From positions 1-55,223 of the forward strand of contig JAHYJC010000032.1 of the NCBI GenBank assembly GCA_019429275.1: a stretch of DNA of 55,223 bases, read 5' to 3'. Source of the stretch: Lentimicrobium sp. (GTDB taxonomy: Bacteria > Bacteroidota > Bacteroidia > Bacteroidales > Lentimicrobiaceae). A program made the translations under genes and the position numbers. Every line of letters begins with the position of its first letter. Within the stretch, counting starts at the first letter, position 1. Below are positions 32,690 to 46,952 of the stretch, in pieces. The notes beneath the pieces are model-generated. The model saw nothing but the letters and a program-made list of their open reading frames with translations. It did no database searches and had not been told where the DNA came from.

Positions 32690-34840
32690 ATGATCAAGCG
32701 TATCACCTTCTTAAAAAGCTGGATAGCTGTTCTGGCACTGACAGCCTGCACATCAACCACTGAACCAACTATAAAAACAACCATGCAAAGCGACTTCCCG
32801 CCACCCCCTGTAGCTGAAATTAAACTGGTAACTTTTAATGAATTCGGCAACGAAAGGATTGATAACTATTTCTGGCTAAAGGAAAAAGAAAATCCAGAGG
32901 TATTGGCTTACCTTAACGCTGAGAATGATTATTGCGATACGGTAATGAAATCCACACTTCCCCTTCAGGAAAAACTTTTTGCCGAAATGAAGGGCCGTAT
33001 CAAAGAAACCGACGAAACTGTGCCGCAGCTTGACAACGGGTATTACTACTATTCGCGCACCGAAGAAGGAAAACAATACCGGATTTTCTGCCGCAAAAAA
33101 GGCGATGTTTCAGCTCCTGAAGAGATAATTTTTGATGTAAACCAAATGGCCGAAGGCAAACCGGCATTTATTTTTGCAGGATATGACATCAGCAGCAATA
33201 GCAAACTGGCTGCCTATGCATCGAACGAAACGGGATCTTTTGCTGATTTTTCCCTGAAATTTAAAGATCTGGAATCGGGTAATGACCTCGCGCTGAGCAT
33301 TGATAAAGTGCAGGGCTTTGCCTGGGCCAACGACAACAAAACAGTTTTTTATACTGTGGGTAATGATGCTTTACGTGCATGGAGGGTTTACCGCATCGAC
33401 ATATCAGACAACAAACCGGCCGAACTGGTTTTTGAAGAACCCAACGAACAGTTTATTGTGTATGTTGAAAAAAGCAAAACCAACGATTTTATCTTTATTA
33501 CTACTGCAAGCATCTCCACTTCCGAAATCCATTTAATACCGGCCAACGAACCTGAGGGAAAATTCAAACCCTTCATTTCCAGGGTAAAGGATGTTGAATA
33601 TCATGTTTATCACCATAGAGATAAATTCTTTGTTCAATACAAAGACCGCGACAACCTGAATTCTATGGTTTATGAAGCACCCCTTAAGGGATATGAAGAC
33701 CGCAACACATGGAAAGTGCTGATTCCGCACGACAAGGATACAAAACTTGAGAGACTTGATATTTTTCAGGATTACCTGACTGCTCAGATGCGGAGGAACG
33801 GGCTCAACGAAATCAATATTATTGGGCTGAAAGATGGCGAACAGAAAACCATCAGTTTCCCTGAACCTGTTTATACGGCAAACATGAACGAAACTCCCGA
33901 ATATAACTCCGCAACACTTCGCTACAGCTACACCTCTCTCAACCGGCCCAACAGTGTGTTTGAATATGAGTTGCCGACCGGAAAAAGCACCCTGCTGAAA
34001 CAACAGGAAATTCCCGGTGGTTTTAATCCCGATGATTATACCGTAGAGCGGGTTTGGGCAACGGCTGAAGATGGTATTAAAGTCCCAATGTCGGTGGTAT
34101 ATAAAAAATCGCTGAAAAAAGATGGTAGCAATCCTGCTTTGCTATACTCTTACGGATCTTATGGATCAAGCTCTGATGCCTATTTTATTTCAAGTTTCTA
34201 CAGTTTGATTGACCGTGGATTTGTTTACGCCATTGCACAGATTCGCGGCGGCAGCGACATGGGTGAACATTGGTACGAAGATGGCAAACTGCTAAAAAAG
34301 AAAAACACTTTTACCGATTTCATCTCCTGTGCCGAAAAACTGATAGAAGATAAATACACAGCTGCGAATAAACTGGCCATTATGGGTGGAAGTGCCGGCG
34401 GTTTGCTGGTGGGTGCGGTTGTCAATATGCGGCCTGATCTTTTCAACACCGTGGTGGCACAGGTTCCTTTTGTGGATGTGATCACCACCATGCTCGACAC
34501 CAGCCTGCCACTAACCACCCAGGAATACGAAGAGTGGGGTAATCCGAACGAGGAAGAGTATTATAACTACATGCTTACCTATTCGCCTTACGACAACATA
34601 AAAGCACAAAACTACCCCAATATGCTGATTACCGGTGGATTGAATGACTCACAGGTAGGCTATCAGGAGCCGGCCAAATTCACCGCCAAACTCAGGGCTA
34701 TGAAAACCGACAACAACATTCTGCTTTTGAAAACCAATATGGAATCAGGTCATGGTGGTGCTACCGGCCGTTTTGATGCGCTGAAGGAAACGGCATTTGA
34801 GGTAGCTTTCATCCTGACAAGGGTTGGAATGAATGAATAA
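32690..34840 (+). CDS. Prolyl oligopeptidase family serine peptidase (oligopeptidase B-like, S9A)
   Basis: 716 residues. A lipoprotein-type signal (SWIAVLALTACTST) places it in the envelope. Residues 45-440 form the S9A beta-propeller (YFWLKEKENPEVLAYLNAEND...; GYYYYSRTEEGKQYRIFCRKKG). The C-terminal alpha/beta hydrolase domain has the nucleophile Ser in MGGSAGGLLVGAV (about residue 567), Asp in GGLNDSQVGYQEP (about 652) and His in ESGHGG (about 686). The sequence follows the PtrB branch (RGGSDMGEHWYEDGKLLKKKNTFTDF). It cleaves short peptides, likely after basic residues or Pro. Confidence 0.93.
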   Translation: MIKRITFLKSWIAVLALTACTSTTEPTIKTTMQSDFPPPPVAEIKLVTFNEFGNERIDNYFWLKEKENPEVLAYLNAENDYCDTVMKSTLPLQEKLFAEMKGRIKETDETVPQLDNGYYYYSRTEEGKQYRIFCRKKGDVSAPEEIIFDVNQMAEGKPAFIFAGYDISSNSKLAAYASNETGSFADFSLKFKDLESGNDLALSIDKVQGFAWANDNKTVFYTVGNDALRAWRVYRIDISDNKPAELVFEEPNEQFIVYVEKSKTNDFIFITTASISTSEIHLIPANEPEGKFKPFISRVKDVEYHVYHHRDKFFVQYKDRDNLNSMVYEAPLKGYEDRNTWKVLIPHDKDTKLERLDIFQDYLTAQMRRNGLNEINIIGLKDGEQKTISFPEPVYTANMNETPEYNSATLRYSYTSLNRPNSVFEYELPTGKSTLLKQQEIPGGFNPDDYTVERVWATAEDGIKVPMSVVYKKSLKKDGSNPALLYSYGSYGSSSDAYFISSFYSLIDRGFVYAIAQIRGGSDMGEHWYEDGKLLKKKNTFTDFISCAEKLIEDKYTAANKLAIMGGSAGGLLVGAVVNMRPDLFNTVVAQVPFVDVITTMLDTSLPLTTQEYEEWGNPNEEEYYNYMLTYSPYDNIKAQNYPNMLITGGLNDSQVGYQEPAKFTAKLRAMKTDNNILLLKTNMESGHGGATGRFDALKETAFEVAFILTRVGMNE

Positions 34841-35100
34841 GCTGTTAAAAGTGTGGCCATTATTATGCTTATACTAACATTTATTCAGTGCATTAAAAGA
34901 TATGGGTTTCGATGTATTTTAACCGAACCGTAATTGAATAAAATAAGCTAGTATCACATCATGACTTTCGGATATTGACAAATTTTAATTATTGCAATAT
35001 AATTTTTTAGCTGTCATTAATTGTCAAACATTTTTAAAGCTAAGAAAAATCAAAGTTTGAATAATAATTTATGAATTAAAGTTGTGGAGGAACTGAAAAA
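34841..35100. other. Intergenic region without a recognised feature
   Basis: AT-rich, no open frame with coding character and no strong hairpin. It separates the S9 peptidase from the ClpP-like gene, whose promoter presumably lies here but could not be pinned down. Confidence 0.4.
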
Positions 35101-35640
35101 ATGAAAGCACGTTTCAAAATTATTCCTGAAAGAAGTTTGCACCTTAGTCGTGAATTTAATGAAAGAGATGCAGACATACTGATTGGTAAGCTGTTTGAAC
35201 TCAATCAAAGCAAAGGAAATATATTTCTTCAGATTAACAGTGGCGGAGGCAGTTTTGCCGGATCGCAAAAAATTTATGACAATATAGCCTTGAGCCCAAA
35301 TCCGGTAATCGGCGTGGTTGCCGGTGATTGTTTTTCGGGAGCTTCTATAATTTTACAGGCATGTTCAAAAAGACTTGCCACAAAGAACTCCCGACTACTT
35401 ATTCATCATGTATCTTATCCAATCAGATTAAATATTAAGCATTCTGATACAATTGAAGGATTATCGGCAAAGATTCTCGATGATATGGCCCAGATTAAAA
35501 CAAACGAAGAAATTCTAATCAGAATATTGGGGGAAAAATTAAAGGTTTCGACTGATCAGATTCTTCAATTATTGGATAAGGAAGAGATGATGAACCCCAA
35601 AAAAGCCCTGGCAACAGGGTTAATTGATGAAATTATATAA
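35101..35640 (+). CDS. ClpP-like serine protease (stand-alone)
   Basis: 179 residues, shorter than canonical ClpP (about 195-220). The fold is recognisable: FLQINSGGGSFAGSQKIYDNI, catalytic Ser in VVAGDCFSGASIILQACS, catalytic His in SRLLIHHVSYP, and a C-terminal ATGLIDEI corresponding to the turn after the catalytic Asp region. The nucleophile motif FSGAS differs from the usual ASMGA of housekeeping ClpP, so it belongs to a divergent branch. No Clp ATPase gene is nearby, and the DUF1801 gene follows after 12 nt. Confidence 0.8.
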   Translation: MKARFKIIPERSLHLSREFNERDADILIGKLFELNQSKGNIFLQINSGGGSFAGSQKIYDNIALSPNPVIGVVAGDCFSGASIILQACSKRLATKNSRLLIHHVSYPIRLNIKHSDTIEGLSAKILDDMAQIKTNEEILIRILGEKLKVSTDQILQLLDKEEMMNPKKALATGLIDEII

Positions 35641-35652
35641 AACAGGAACTTT

Positions 35653-35997
35653 TTGTCATTTATTAAATGGAATCAGGTTACAAAATACATCCTCAAAGCG
35701 CCCAAAGTACAAAAGAAACTGATGGAAGAAATCAGGGCATTGATTCACGGTGAAGTTCCGGAAGTAGTGGAAAATTTCAAATGGAGCCGTCCTGTTTTTT
35801 CAACCGGCAAAGACTTCGCTTATTTTAAAACCACAAAAGCATATCTTACGTTTGGGTTCTTTGAATCTGATAAAATCAGGGACAATTCACATCTTCTGGA
35901 AGGAACCGGAAAAGAAATGAGGCATATAAAACTCAGAAAAACCACTGATTTTCAGCCCGATATCATAATAAACTGGATTCAGCAAATAACTGCATAA
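35653..35997 (+). CDS. DUF1801 (YdhG-like) protein
   Basis: 114 residues. The DUF1801 pattern is evident: KVQKKLMEEIRALIHGEVPEVVENFKWSRPVFSTGKDFAYFKTTKAYLTFGFFESDKI, then LLEGTGKEMRHIKLRK. The frame opens with TTG at 35653; no earlier ATG is possible because an in-frame stop (the clpP-like stop, 35638-35640) lies just upstream, so a TTG start with SD-like AACAGGAAC is the best reading. Family function is unknown; the fold resembles iron-sulfur-chaperone-like YdhG proteins. Likely cotranscribed with the ClpP-like gene. Confidence 0.8.
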   Translation: MSFIKWNQVTKYILKAPKVQKKLMEEIRALIHGEVPEVVENFKWSRPVFSTGKDFAYFKTTKAYLTFGFFESDKIRDNSHLLEGTGKEMRHIKLRKTTDFQPDIIINWIQQITA

Positions 35998-43990: not shown

Positions 43991-44704
43991 CTACTTAATA
44001 ATGCTCAGATACCGGTCTCTGATGGCTGTTATTTTTTCAATAGTAAGATCCTCGCGATAGATTCTTATCATATTCTGTATTCCTTTGCCCTCGAAATACC
44101 AGGCGTAGGCAGCATCAAAATACAGCAAAGAGGTGTCGTATTTGACTTCAGTGGTGATTTTGTTAAAGGTTTCAAAATCAAGATGCCTTGGAATAAGGAA
44201 GTAGGCGTGATGAGGCTGTGAACGATCAATCCACATTCCATCTCCCAGCTCGCTGAGATAGAACAGCTTGTTAAGCGTTATCAAACCCTCTTCATCAGTA
44301 AAACTTTTTACCTTTTTGCGATACTCCAGCCCGGCAGCCTTGTAAAGTTCCTGAAGTTCCCTGATATTTCCATAACTGCCCAGATCGCGGACTCTGATGA
44401 TGGGACAGGTACGATCAAAGAAATGAACAGAGCCAAAAGCAGCATCAAAAGTGAAGCTTGCTTCTGACTTTACCTTTTCAGTAGCCCGAATGATGGTTTC
44501 TGCAGTGTAGTCTATGCTGTGTTCCAGTACCAGATATAGATAAAGAGGCCTCTTTGCTCCAGGCACATCATTGTAATAACCTGAAAAAGGCTTTCTGGCT
44601 TCCAGTAAGCAGGCATTGTGCATCAGGCTTGAGTCTTCCAGACAAGTTAGGGATTCCGTTTTTACCAATCCACCGAACTTTTCGATAATTGCTGACTTTT
44701 CCAT
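43991..44704 (-). CDS. Conserved-looking cytoplasmic protein of unknown function
   Basis: 237 residues with no signal or membrane segment. Coding character is good and strands and helices alternate (RPLYLYLVLEHSIDYTAETIIRATEKVKSEASFTFDAAFGSVHFFDRTCPIIRVRDLG; YDTSLLYFDAAYAWYFEGKGIQNMIRIYREDLTIEKI). No known domain was recognised. It is a single gene with a good promoter at 44730-44761, upstream of the tRNA-Arg repeat locus on the other strand. Confidence 0.7.
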   Translation of the reverse strand: MEKSAIIEKFGGLVKTESLTCLEDSSLMHNACLLEARKPFSGYYNDVPGAKRPLYLYLVLEHSIDYTAETIIRATEKVKSEASFTFDAAFGSVHFFDRTCPIIRVRDLGSYGNIRELQELYKAAGLEYRKKVKSFTDEEGLITLNKLFYLSELGDGMWIDRSQPHHAYFLIPRHLDFETFNKITTEVKYDTSLLYFDAAYAWYFEGKGIQNMIRIYREDLTIEKITAIRDRYLSIIK

Positions 44705-44729
44705 AAACTCGGTTTTAATAATAAATTTC

Positions 44730-44761
44730 TAAATATAAGGAGATTAGAAGATATTTCCAAA
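44730..44761 (-). promoter_or_regulatory. Promoter of the 43991-44704 gene
   Basis: On the minus strand TTTG (44758-44761), a 20-nt spacer, then TATATTTA (44730-44737), one mismatch from TAnnTTTG; 25 nt upstream of the ATG at 44704. Confidence 0.6.
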
Positions 44762-44869
44762 TAATAAGCTAAGTTATTATTAATAAAATTGAAAAATGTG
44801 GAAAATTGGAAAAATATTTTTTTCTGCTGCTGGTAAACCTTTTTTAACGAAATTTGCACTCTTGTTTCC

Positions 44870-44997
44870 GGCCCCGTACCCGCCTGACCGACAAAGTATT
44901 ACTCCAAATTTTAAATAATTTGGTCCGTCGGGCAGGGAGCGTCAGATTCCGGTTCTGAAGCCTGCCTGCCGGCAGGCAGGGTCACAGGCTTGAATCC
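44870..44997 (+). pseudogene. tRNA-Arg(CCG) pseudogene 1, split by hairpin elements
   Basis: Pieces of the intact tRNA at 45613 appear in order. GGCCCC (44870-44875) is followed by a 62-nt hairpin element (44876-44937), AGCGTCAGATTCCGGTTCTG and AAG (44938-44960, the anticodon arm), a 20-nt perfect palindrome CCTGCCTGCCGGCAGGCAGG (44961-44980), then GTCACAGGCTTGAATCC (44981-44997, T arm). The D arm is lost and the 3' acceptor strand is replaced by CTGCCTGCCGAAGGCA and unrelated sequence. It cannot give a normal tRNA. Confidence 0.8.
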
Positions 44998-45344
44998 CTG
45001 CCTGCCGAAGGCATGGACTGCCTCGTTAGTTGGCCGGCTATCGGGATCACCAATTAAAGAGGCTGACTCAAAGTCAGTTTTCAGGCATAGCGAACCCTGA
45101 TTCATCAGTAGACTCCTTCTGAAAGGTTATCAGCCTGCAAATTGGAAAAATATTTTTTTCTGCTGCCGGTAAACGTTTTTTAACGAAATTTGCACTCTTG
45201 TTTCCGGCCCCGTACCCGCCTGACCGACAAAGTATTACTCCAAATTTTAAATAATTTAGTCTGTCGGGCAGGGCTCAGTTGAATACCCGCCTGACCGACA
45301 AGGTATTACTCCATATTTTAAATAATTTGGTCCGTCGGGCAGGG
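44876..45344. repeat. 62-nt hairpin element, three copies
   Basis: Copies at 44876-44937, 45212-45273 and 45285-45344. Outer arms ACCCGCCTGACCGAC and GTCCGTCGGGCAGGG pair with one bulge and two mismatches; inner arms CCAAATT and AATTTGG pair around TTAAAT. The whole element can fold into one long hairpin. No open frame. It behaves like a very short non-autonomous palindromic element. Confidence 0.8.
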
Positions 45345-45404
45345 AGCGTCAGATTCCGGTTCTGAAGCCTGCCTGCCGGCAGGCAGGGTCACAGGTTTGA
45401 ATCC
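45206..45404 (+). pseudogene. tRNA-Arg(CCG) pseudogene 2, split by three hairpin elements
   Basis: GGCCCC (45206-45211), 62-nt hairpin element (45212-45273), CTCAGTTGAAT (45274-45284, D arm), a second 60-nt copy of the hairpin (45285-45344), anticodon arm segment with CCGG (45345-45367), the 20-nt palindrome (45368-45387), and GTCACAGGTTTGAATCC (45388-45404). Each interval corresponds to a continuous part of the intact tRNA, so the elements interrupt it at three defined points. The 3' acceptor strand is missing. Confidence 0.82.
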
Positions 45405-45612
45405 CTGCCTGCCGAAGGCATGGACTGCCTCGTTAGTTGGCCGGCTATCGGGATCACCAATTAAAGAGGCTGACTCAAAGTCAGTTTTCATGCATAGCGA
45501 ACCCTGATTCATCAGTAGGCTCCTTCTGAAAGGTTATCAGCCTGCAAATTGGAAAAATATTTTTTTCTGCTGCTGGTAAACGTTTTTTAACGAAATTTGC
45601 ACTCTTGTTTCC

Positions 45613-45686
45613 GGCCCCTTAGCTCAGCTGAATAGAGCGTCAGATTCCGGTTCTGAAGGTCACAGGTTTGAATCCTGTAGGGGTCA
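45613..45686 (+). tRNA. tRNA-Arg (anticodon CCG), intact
   Basis: The cloverleaf folds fully. Acceptor stem GGCCCCT with AGGGGTC (one G-T pair), D arm GCTCAGCTGAATAGAGC, anticodon stem TCAGA/TCTGA with loop TTCCGGT giving anticodon CCG, and T arm ACAGG-TTTGAAT-CCTGT. The discriminator base is A (45686) and CCA is not encoded. It decodes CGG. It has the repeated leader upstream and two duplicated T-arm/acceptor ends downstream. Confidence 0.95.
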
Positions 45687-45774
45687 CAGGTTTGAATCCC
45701 TGCCTGCCGGAAGGCAGGCTGTAGGGGTCACAGGTTTGAATCCCTGCCTGCCGGAAGGCAGGCTGTAGGGGTCA
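45687..45774 (+). repeat. Two tandem 44-nt copies of the tRNA 3' end, each carrying a palindrome
   Basis: 45687-45730 and 45731-45774 are identical. Each equals the last 24 nt of the tRNA (CAGGTTTGAATCC and TGTAGGGGTCA) with CTGCCTGCCGGAAGGCAGGC inserted between AATCC and TGTAGG. The intact gene at 45663-45686 is the same unit without the insert. Confidence 0.9.
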
Positions 45775-45778
45775 CATC

Positions 45779-45811
45779 AGAGGCCGTCACAAAATGGCAA
45801 CCTCTTTTTTT
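45779..45811 (+). terminator. Terminator of the tRNA-Arg transcript
   Basis: AGAGGCC (45779-45785) pairs with GGC-AA-CCTCT (45796-45805), followed by a run of T to 45811. It overlaps an ATG at 45794, which argues that the GIY-YIG gene starts at 45812. Confidence 0.7.
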
Positions 45812-46060
45812 ATGATTTATACAGTTTATGTAATTAAAAGCCAGAAAGATGGCAGACTCTACAAAGGTATGTCCACCAATGTTGAGTTCAGATTAAAAGA
45901 ACACAATTCGGGAAGAAATTTTTCAACCAGCCCTTACAAACCCTGGAAGTTGGTGTACACAAAAGAATTTCCCGATCGGAACCAAGCCAGAAATTGGGAA
46001 AAATATTTAAAATCAGGTATAGGTCGGGAATATCTAAAGAAATTTTTATCTGAAAATTAA
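45812..46060 (+). CDS. GIY-YIG endonuclease-like protein
   Basis: About 82 residues from the ATG at 45812 (MIYTVYVIKSQKDGRLYKGMS). The GIY-YIG fold is represented by YTVYVIKS...RLYKGMSTNVEFRLKEHNSG with conserved R/H region, then WKLVYTKEFPDRNQARNWEKYLKSGIGREYLKKFL. Such single-domain UPF0213/YhbQ-like proteins are frequent in Bacteroidota, often close to tRNA or rRNA genes; substrate unknown. It ends 37 nt before the convergent HAD gene. The KGM in place of YIG is a relaxed version of the second motif. Confidence 0.87.
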   Translation: MIYTVYVIKSQKDGRLYKGMSTNVEFRLKEHNSGRNFSTSPYKPWKLVYTKEFPDRNQARNWEKYLKSGIGREYLKKFLSEN

Positions 46061-46097
46061 AGTATCTTACAACGGTTTTGAACCCTGCTTATTTTGA

Positions 46098-46952
46098 TCA
46101 ACCGGCGTAATCTTTCAGCTCCACCTCTGCCCTTATTTTTTCAATCACCAGTTTGATGAGCCGGTCAAGCTCACTGCCTTCGGCATAATCGGCCGGAGCC
46201 AGATGGTTGGCCCGGTTTTGTTTGATCAGGTTTTCGCAGGATTCGCGGGGTGAGATTTTCCCTTTTTCAGGTTTAATACCGGCATTGTAAACTGCAATGG
46301 CTATGCCACCCTGATATTTGATCATTTTCATGGCTGGCACATCGGTCTCGCCATCGCCTATGTAAATCATTTGTTTAAAAGGCACAGCCCGCTCCTCTTC
46401 GGGCAAATATTTATTGATCAGGGTATTATCGTATGAATTATTAATTCCCTTGTTGATGCGGAAAAGGTATTGGGTTTTATTGGTGTAGTTGATGGCCAGC
46501 GCCGGCCATACGGCCACTCCGTTTGCATCATAACGGTATCCCGATGCATAAATATTTTTAAAATGCCTGGCGATGGTCGTTCCACTAATAAATTCGCGCA
46601 GGCCTGAAGAAATGATGTAATGCTCCAACTCAACCCCTCTTTCATGGGCAAAGGCATTGATGCGGTCGAAATAAGTCTCCACGCCTTTAAAAAAAGTAAT
46701 TCCTCTGCCGTAATGCTCAAAGTCGCTCTTACGGATGGGCAAATCGCGACGGCGTGCTTCATCCAGCGAAAGCTGCATATAGGCCAGAATTTCATCCATA
46801 TCGTTTTCCCGGGCAATCTGATTGGCATGCTTCCAGAACTCCTTTGCAGGAATTTTTAATGAAGGCAGGAAAGTGTGCTCCTGCATATTACCGGGGGCCA
46901 GGGTACCATCAAAATCGTAGGCTATGGCTATTTTTATTAATTTTTCTGACAT
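46098..46952 (-). CDS. HAD-superfamily hydrolase
   Basis: 284 residues, cytoplasmic. Motif I AYDFDGTLAPGN supplies the nucleophile and acid Asp; motif II lies in HYIISSGLREFISG; motif III/IV is MIYIGDGETDVPAMKMIKYQGGIAIAVYN with the DxxxD acidic pair. A long helical cap (about 25-100) inserts after motif I. It resembles phosphoserine-phosphatase-like HADs, but the substrate is not predictable. Promoter-like TAAATTTG on the minus strand at 46975-46982. Confidence 0.87.
   Translation of the reverse strand: MSEKLIKIAIAYDFDGTLAPGNMQEHTFLPSLKIPAKEFWKHANQIARENDMDEILAYMQLSLDEARRRDLPIRKSDFEHYGRGITFFKGVETYFDRINAFAHERGVELEHYIISSGLREFISGTTIARHFKNIYASGYRYDANGVAVWPALAINYTNKTQYLFRINKGINNSYDNTLINKYLPEEERAVPFKQMIYIGDGETDVPAMKMIKYQGGIAIAVYNAGIKPEKGKISPRESCENLIKQNRANHLAPADYAEGSELDRLIKLVIEKIRAEVELKDYAG

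Follow-up and report, generated by a model that had tools for sequence, protein, structure and literature searches.

What has happened to a bacterial tRNA gene that is preceded by two copies of itself, each broken by hairpins at discrete points? The question arises from a 55,223-nt stretch of Lentimicrobium sp. DNA (contig JAHYJC010000032.1 of assembly GCA_019429275.1), hereafter the window, which is contig 50 of a 4.19-Mb genome in 108 contigs. A first-pass annotation had noticed interrupted tRNA-Arg(CCG) copies at 44870-45404 and had suggested that very small palindromic elements target tRNA genes or that slippage and repair build them in. The adjoining gene for a GIY-YIG protein, absent from that annotation, best explains why such copies exist. 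Our preferred reading, which we consider probable, is that a small selfish element has taken up residence in the tRNA gene, with a free-standing, homing-type GIY-YIG nuclease at its core that would work in the manner of SegB, a phage enzyme; its nuclease action and its mobility are what we infer from comparison of many such loci.

Results

The tRNA-Arg(CCG) locus and its broken copies

Copies of tRNA-Arg(CCG) with hairpin inserts at discrete points were confirmed at the reported place, and the structure of the locus (Table 1) lies far above chance. A 67-nt leader begins at 44803, 45139 and 45546, each time directly 5′ of a tRNA-Arg sequence, and only the third of these sequences is a tRNA by ARAGORN and Rfam. 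The leaders are identical at 65-66 of 67 positions in pairwise comparison (97-99%), in agreement with the earlier remark that the leader is preserved in all copies. Copy 2 (45206-45423) is the intact tRNA cut as 1-9/P58/10-22/P58/23-46/P20/47-62/P20, in which P58 is a 58-nt hairpin and P20 a 20-nt palindrome, with no base missing between the segments 1-9, 10-22, 23-46 and 47-62. Copy 1 lacks tRNA nt 10-22 together with one 58-nt hairpin (71 nt in total); when those 71 nt are taken out of copy 2, the two agree at 329 of 336 positions. Aligning the three copies, as had been recommended, confirmed a tandem array in which copies 1 and 2 are set apart by this 71-nt difference. The segments had been described as keeping their order in both copies, which is correct for copy 2, whereas copy 1 is without nt 10-22 and both are without nt 63-75. 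The tRNA segments equal those of the intact gene save for single bases in 1-9, in 10-22 and, in copy 1, in 47-62; copies 1 and 2 thus differ from the intact gene at few sites, tRNAs being short and conserved in any case.

The inserts lie at the acceptor/D border, the D-loop/D-stem border, the variable region and the T-loop/T-stem border. These are four points and not the three first described, the fourth being occupied by an imperfect 20-nt palindrome after nt 62, and the long inserts measure 58 nt each instead of 62 and 60 nt. Folding z-scores of six inserts range from -2.2 to -3.5. Clean inserts lie between adjacent tRNA bases, and direct target repeats are absent beyond one ambiguous base; a transposase-borne element with target duplication was rejected on this ground. 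Two repeats of the T arm follow 3′ of the intact gene, each with a 20-nt palindrome between nt 62 and 63.

Table 1. Positions of the leaders, tRNA segments, inserts and nuclease gene in the window
Feature	Position	Strand	Remarks
Leader of copy 1, presumed promoter-bearing	44803..44869	+	65/67 identical to leader 2, 66/67 to leader 3
Copy 1, tRNA nt 1-9	44870..44878	+	
58-nt hairpin (ends CCCGCC..GGCAGG) at the junction of nt 9 and 23, copy 1	44879..44936	+	z -3.4
Copy 1, tRNA nt 23-46	44937..44960	+	
Perfect 20-nt palindrome CCTGCCTGCCGGCAGGCAGG between nt 46 and 47, copy 1	44961..44980	+	
Copy 1, tRNA nt 47-62	44981..44996	+	
Imperfect 20-nt palindrome after nt 62, copy 1	44997..45016	+	
Leader of copy 2	45139..45205	+	
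Copy 2, tRNA nt 1-9	45206..45214	+	
58-nt hairpin between nt 9 and 10, copy 2	45215..45272	+	
Copy 2, tRNA nt 10-22	45273..45285	+	
58-nt hairpin between nt 22 and 23 (D loop / D stem border), copy 2	45286..45343	+	
Copy 2, tRNA nt 23-46	45344..45367	+	
Perfect 20-nt palindrome between nt 46 and 47, copy 2	45368..45387	+	
Copy 2, tRNA nt 47-62	45388..45403	+	
Imperfect 20-nt palindrome after nt 62, copy 2	45404..45423	+	
Leader of intact copy	45546..45612	+	
Intact tRNA-Arg(CCG)	45613..45687	+	ARAGORN; Rfam RF00005 61.6 bits
Two 44-nt repeats of T arm and acceptor 3′ strand	45675..45762	+	palindromes 45699-45718 and 45743-45762, between nt 62 and 63
Third copy of tRNA nt 63-75	45763..45775	+	
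GIY-YIG nuclease gene, 82 aa	45812..46060	+	longer reading from 45794; Pfam PF01541 1.2e-15

In 17 of 18 genus relatives, the stretch around tRNA-Arg(CCG), which reached no more than 90 nt to the 5′ side and 260 nt to the 3′ side and was shorter where a contig ended, contains one tRNA and no leader repeat, palindrome or GIY-YIG gene. Because the locus is clean in these relatives, we take the window locus to be the derived state. In the relative G015, a 50-nt match (96%) to part of the window tRNA-Arg lies off the main locus (G015:C43:4262-4311) and is possibly a tRNA fragment.

The GIY-YIG protein

The protein encoded 3′ of the array belongs to the GIY-YIG family (Pfam PF01541, 1.2e-15), and its residues Y6, Y17, G19, R27, H31, N32 and E63 are invariant in 14 sequences. 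The AlphaFold model has a mean pLDDT of 93.7. The nearest solved structures by profile are UPF0213 1zg2 (4.1e-18) and SLX1 6seh (1.2e-8), and the same two families are the two Foldseek matches at E <= 0.001. SLX1, which the window-type proteins thus resemble along with UPF0213, is a branched-DNA nuclease and works with SLX4. No NCBIfam family was found for the window protein. The protein has its own ORF outside any intron or intein, the intact tRNA standing clear of the ORF, and Rfam found no group I intron in 44700-46200. A self-splicing group I intron in the tRNA, carrying its own endonuclease, was therefore rejected for the window stretch.

A tblastn search of 50,697 phage records with the window enzyme (E 1e-5) gave no match in T-even phage and matched only 10 Rhizobium phage records, at 35-37% identity. 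Membership of the SegB family proper was rejected because no sequence relationship was found, as judged through tblastn to phage records and not to SegB itself; a phage or plasmid origin was rejected as well, the phage matches being weak only and plasmid matches none. Between species, dN/dS is 0.07-0.27 for the pairs with finite dS (dS mostly 0.7-3, the other pairs being saturated), and it is 0.49 between two Asp-type copies in the window genome. On these ratios, purifying selection seems to act on the nuclease genes.

GIY-YIG genes beside tRNA genes in 41 genomes

The window genome has 10 GIY-YIG matches, and five of its tRNA loci (Arg-CCG, Leu-CAA, Asn, Asp and Pro-TGG) combine a GIY-YIG gene with interrupted copies. 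From 138 PF01541 matches in 41 genomes, 72 places were picked by hand. Left uncounted were 64 matches whose open frames reach about 300 aa or longer (UvrC, DnaQ-like proteins and some others) and two short matches (G016:C507 and the second match at G018:C86). Among the 72 places are some broken or other frames, for example part of a UvrC (G018:C103) and short fragments where contigs end. Half of the places (36/72) lie within 500 bp of a tRNA, all 36 on the strand of the tRNA and 31 with the tRNA upstream, and none of 13 control loci of UvrC/DnaQ type (about 2-3 kb each) contained a tRNA. The other 36 places, without a tRNA within 500 bp, include 17 in a separate clade and several at contig ends.

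In a tree of 68 of the 72 places, these 17 rows stand apart and the rest largely cluster by tRNA isotype. The isotype label, assigned by hand in three cases, changes 15 times on the tree against a shuffled mean of 34.7, and none of 200 shuffles was as low. We take the separate clade to be of UPF0213/YhbQ type by its C-terminal motif. Although UPF0213 and SLX1 provide the closest solved structures, this presumed UPF0213-type clade differs from the window type in having no tRNA neighbours.

The arrangement across phyla

A collection with one genome per species (84,980 species) was scanned with three Arg-type enzymes, and 80 of the 87 relatives found were analysed; because of this query, the cross-phylum set is biased to the Arg/Leu-type clade and to CCYGCC palindromes. 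It overlaps with the 41-genome set by two loci (L205 = L137 and L207 = L119), and L228/L230 and L247/L248 are near pairs. Seventy of the 80 loci lie within 500 bp of a tRNA, 70/70 on the same strand and under 18 phylum labels: 42 (of 45) are from Bacteroidota, 23 carry 17 other labels (many Patescibacteria) and five are unlabelled. The remaining 10 have no tRNA within that distance. A partial copy of the same tRNA was found at 65/70 loci when matches from 11 nt up are counted, compared with 3/70 for a reverse-complement bait and 1/70 for a shuffled bait; at 14 nt or more, or at E 0.001, the count is 59/70, with 1 and 0 for the controls.

Two layouts could be distinguished. In type A (49 loci), the order is [tRNA 5′ part]-[nuclease]-[intact tRNA], and in type B (21 loci) it is [intact tRNA]-[nuclease]-[tRNA 3′ part]. 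A tRNA fragment lies on the far side of the nuclease gene at 57/70 loci; in the window itself, tRNA copies stand on both sides of the intact tRNA and not beyond the ORF. A clean palindromic insert between adjacent tRNA bases was found at 53/70 loci (40/49 of type A, 13/21 of type B) and at 1/70 with either control bait; the 53 include L260 and L272, where the matches look spurious on inspection; at L218 a real palindrome was misplaced by the script. Outside the Arg/Leu-type clade this strict test was passed by only 8/31 loci, two of them (L122 and L066) doubtful, because hairpins there mostly replace part of an arm. What recurs across isotypes and phyla is a set: a nuclease gene, one intact tRNA and at least one partial or near-full copy that palindromes interrupt at its loops.

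The exact 20-mer of the window occurs inside tRNA copies of Bacteroidota, Nitrospirota, Omnitrophota and several Patescibacteria. In Algoriphagus pacificus, a tRNA-Arg(CCT) copy with palindromes between nt 9 and 10, 21 and 22, and 55 and 56 is followed by the GIY-YIG gene and then by the intact tRNA. A like design was found in Arenibacter troitsensis, Leeuwenhoekiella polynyae and Mesonia algae and an altered form in Gillisia limnaea, and the 2-contig relative G001 has the design at Asp and Val tRNAs with other palindrome types.

Positions, dispersal and classes of the palindromes

Among 56 inserts (distinct locus/position pairs, inserts starting CC or CT), only four lie inside tRNA stems against 46% expected; the p-value of 1.6e-10, which supposes independence, is too small because the loci are related. 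D-arm points are the commonest, with 24 of the 56 at the D-loop/D-stem border. The earlier statement that inserts occur at discrete points is supported, and these points are loops or borders between loop and stem.

The palindromes also occur elsewhere. Searching the host genome, as the first-pass annotation had advised, gave 20 rows with the ends CCTGCCT..AGGCAGG (control 0), of which four are in the window locus; 11 of the other 16 were inspected, and none of the 11 had a tRNA or tRNA fragment. The exact 20-mer is present in 27/395 Bacteroidota genomes, and only four of 28 inspected loci lie within 600 bp of a tRNA, the window's own lying at 633 bp. Targeting of tRNAs only is refuted by these dispersed copies, an outcome that the first-pass annotation had itself named as counting against its proposal. 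The proposal that palindromic elements target tRNA genes is therefore upheld in so far as the same tRNA points are used in other species and phyla, but not as an exclusive preference.

The class of palindrome varies with the nuclease. Five places in the window genome have the class TCTCGTC..GACGAGA (control 1), and the tRNA arrays of Asp and Thr account for four of these. Within the genus, seven genomes carry this class in their Asp copies; the Asn and Val loci have TCCCG..CGGGA, and the Arg and Leu loci CCYGCC..GGCRGG. Pairs of loci from the same clade in different genomes were alike in class in 29/40 cases, and pairs from different clades in the same genome in 2/22 (0/5000 permutations); the clades were assigned by hand, and the regular expressions missed L129 and L148 and mislabelled the Pro loci L067 and L121, all of which count against the result as given. 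Palindrome class thus follows the GIY clade and not the host, and therefore the palindromes may be partners of the nuclease or be maintained by a factor that the clade determines.

Rickettsia palindromic elements and REP or MITE palindromes are likewise short, dispersed and inserted in genes. The palindromes here are dispersed, as are REP/RAYT palindromes, which a Y1 transposase mobilises, but differ from all of these in being linked to nuclease clades and tRNA loops. They might nonetheless be independent REP/MITE-like elements landing anywhere, for which the surplus tRNA copies near GIY-YIG genes are neutral landing sites. The many same-ended copies away from tRNAs and the low number of exact 20-mers near tRNAs speak for this explanation, as does a tRNA-Asn 5′ fragment with a solo palindrome at L289, where a GIY-YIG gene was not detected. 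We nevertheless judge it unlikely: neutral landing would neither spare stems nor favour the D-loop/D-stem border, and it would not track GIY clade over host. Owing to the relatedness of the loci, the inserts do not all count as separate events.

Discussion

Two known systems, SegB and the mobile ORFs of fungi, guide our view that a homing-type element of tRNA genes is present here. SegB is a free-standing GIY-YIG homing endonuclease of the tRNA region of T-even phages (PMC13096335; PMC2988022), and SegB of phage T6 cuts within tRNA genes and amplifies a tRNA segment by recombination (PMC13096335). Like the window enzyme, it has a GIY-YIG domain and is encoded beside tRNA genes of many isotypes; unlike the window element, it is phage-borne and not chromosomal, and the palindrome-interrupted tRNA copies are a feature of the window element that is absent from the available part of the SegB account (PMC13096335). 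The preferred SegB motif RAWTSGAAC, present at 23/83 sites, is described there as helpful and not required (PMC13096335). In our reading, this motif corresponds to the opposite strand of the tRNA T loop (reverse complement GTTCSAWTY). T-loop palindromes interrupt GTTCSAWTY at L214 and L229, where the match is exact, and at L220, L226 and L270, where it departs by one base.

Mobile ORFs of fungal mitochondria provide the second precedent. According to one report, ORFs in Allomyces atp6 and in Glomus atp6, atp9, cox2 and nad3 carry a replacement gene end, the displaced native part of the gene stays beside the supplied copy, and the atp9 ORF is itself a GIY-YIG protein (PMC3630166). The loci described here share an endonuclease ORF within a gene and a duplicated part of the target on its far side (57/70); the fungal targets are mitochondrial protein genes, whereas ours are bacterial tRNA genes, with palindromes within the surplus copy.

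By analogy, the nuclease would cut tRNA genes at loop-encoding sites, and recombinational repair through short tRNA homologies would copy the nuclease gene in and multiply the tRNA segments. The element would supply or keep one intact tRNA, by which the host survives, and palindromes would mark the break or junction points of the superfluous copies. There they would destroy the cutting site, split the homology into short blocks and block the folding of the spare copy with the real tRNA. Where the nuclease gene lies upstream, it is the promoter-side copy that is dead, and the intact tRNA comes after the nuclease gene; a host that loses the element should therefore lose this tRNA as well. In the window, the dead copies are arrayed in tandem 5′ of the intact gene. 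Copy 1 arose when a unit resembling copy 2 underwent a deletion between its two 58-nt hairpins, or the change went in the opposite direction.

Several points tell against the homing reading. The intact tRNA adjoining the nuclease gene should be the expected target, and its escape is the chief gap; palindromes are dispersed away from tRNAs too; 10/80 cross-phylum loci and 36/72 places are without a tRNA inside 500 bp; the strict insert test is passed by only 8/31 loci beyond the Arg/Leu-type clade; and the match to the SegB motif does not extend to the D-arm points.

Tandem slippage and palindrome-primed repair could in principle have made the array alone, with the nuclease gene as a bystander. 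What separates copies 1 and 2 is indeed, for the most part, a single loss or gain of 71 nt between repeats, and an array of about 12 units of 134 bp at Thr-CGT in the same genome stands on a contig without a GIY-YIG match. We hold this explanation to be highly improbable, however, as the nuclease association is strand-fixed in both surveys and spans 18 phylum labels, and slippage would not account for a single 20-nt palindrome that occupies an identical tRNA position in Nitrospirota, Patescibacteria and Bacteroidota. That the interrupted copies are functional RNAs, whether split or intron-bearing tRNAs or regulatory decoys, is in our view scarcely tenable. The leaders are kept almost unchanged and the arm order is maintained in the copies, but the window copies lack nt 63-75, copies elsewhere are truncated on either side, and above threshold Rfam reports the intact tRNA alone, with no group I intron there. 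Spliced products of the split copies, which had been envisaged earlier, are likewise unsupported because an intact gene is present and the copies are without the 3′ acceptor strand; split or spliced tRNA was rejected accordingly. An assembly artefact of a draft genome, suggested by its 108 contigs, is barely conceivable given the like design in named strains such as A. pacificus, A. troitsensis, L. polynyae and M. algae and, with other palindrome types, in the 2-contig G001.

A bolder version of the homing reading, which we advance tentatively as a possibility below even chances, is that nuclease and cognate palindrome form a paired mobile element. The enzyme would break tRNA genes at loop points, and the palindrome would be inserted there, alone or heading a unit with the nuclease gene and a spare tRNA part; the host would be held because the element has its sole functional copy of an essential tRNA. 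Every nuclease clade would be paired with a particular palindrome family and a particular tRNA target, and the unit would have passed between phyla. The parts are ordinary (a GIY-YIG enzyme, a tRNA and short palindromes), and it is their fixed combination that is unusual; a literature search, with subscription journals largely outside it, found no published description of this arrangement in bacterial chromosomes.

If the homing reading is correct, selfish genes resident in essential tRNA genes encode many of the tiny GIY-YIG proteins known from Bacteroidota, Patescibacteria and other groups, and palindromes at tRNA loops are a readable scar of such elements. The loci would then offer many natural replicates of how a nuclease can inhabit an indispensable gene, which also bear on tRNA gene duplication or replacement and on the 20-bp palindrome as a mobile unit. 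For annotators, hairpin-broken tRNA copies could mark an element and not split tRNAs.

Additional loci

Several loci have features of their own. At L065 (G000:C80), a second GIY-YIG copy with an identical protein lies 2.7 kb from the tRNA-Asn gene, and beside it are a tRNA-Asn 3′ fragment and an ORF that is Fic-like by eye. At L122 (G020:C3), ARAGORN made eight tRNA calls, most of them alike; in several the anticodon could not be read, and two GIY-YIG genes, identical to each other, are interleaved with the calls. At L132 (G010:C62), an Asp-type GIY-YIG gene is flanked on both sides by tRNA-Asp fragments, and no intact tRNA was found within the 4.3 kb read. At L289 (G344:C10), positions 1480-1680 hold the tRNA-Asn 5′ fragment with its solo 20-nt palindrome upstream of an intact gene; with no GIY-YIG gene in the 3 kb examined, this locus is possibly a relic. 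In the window genome, the CCTGCCTG..CAGGCAGG palindromes of L012, L198, L201 and L204 lie off tRNAs and, by eye, are nested in repeat-like sequence. The Thr-CGT array noted above is at L064 321-1957 (G000:C23, about 34320-35956), where tRNA-Thr(CGT) is followed by the tandem units, each consisting of the 3′ half of this tRNA, in which a hairpin stands where the anticodon arm would be. Between this array and a further Thr-tRNA 3′ fragment lies an ORF that is ATPase-like by eye (L064 2147-3334); judging from this ORF, Thr-type arrays may hold other cargo.
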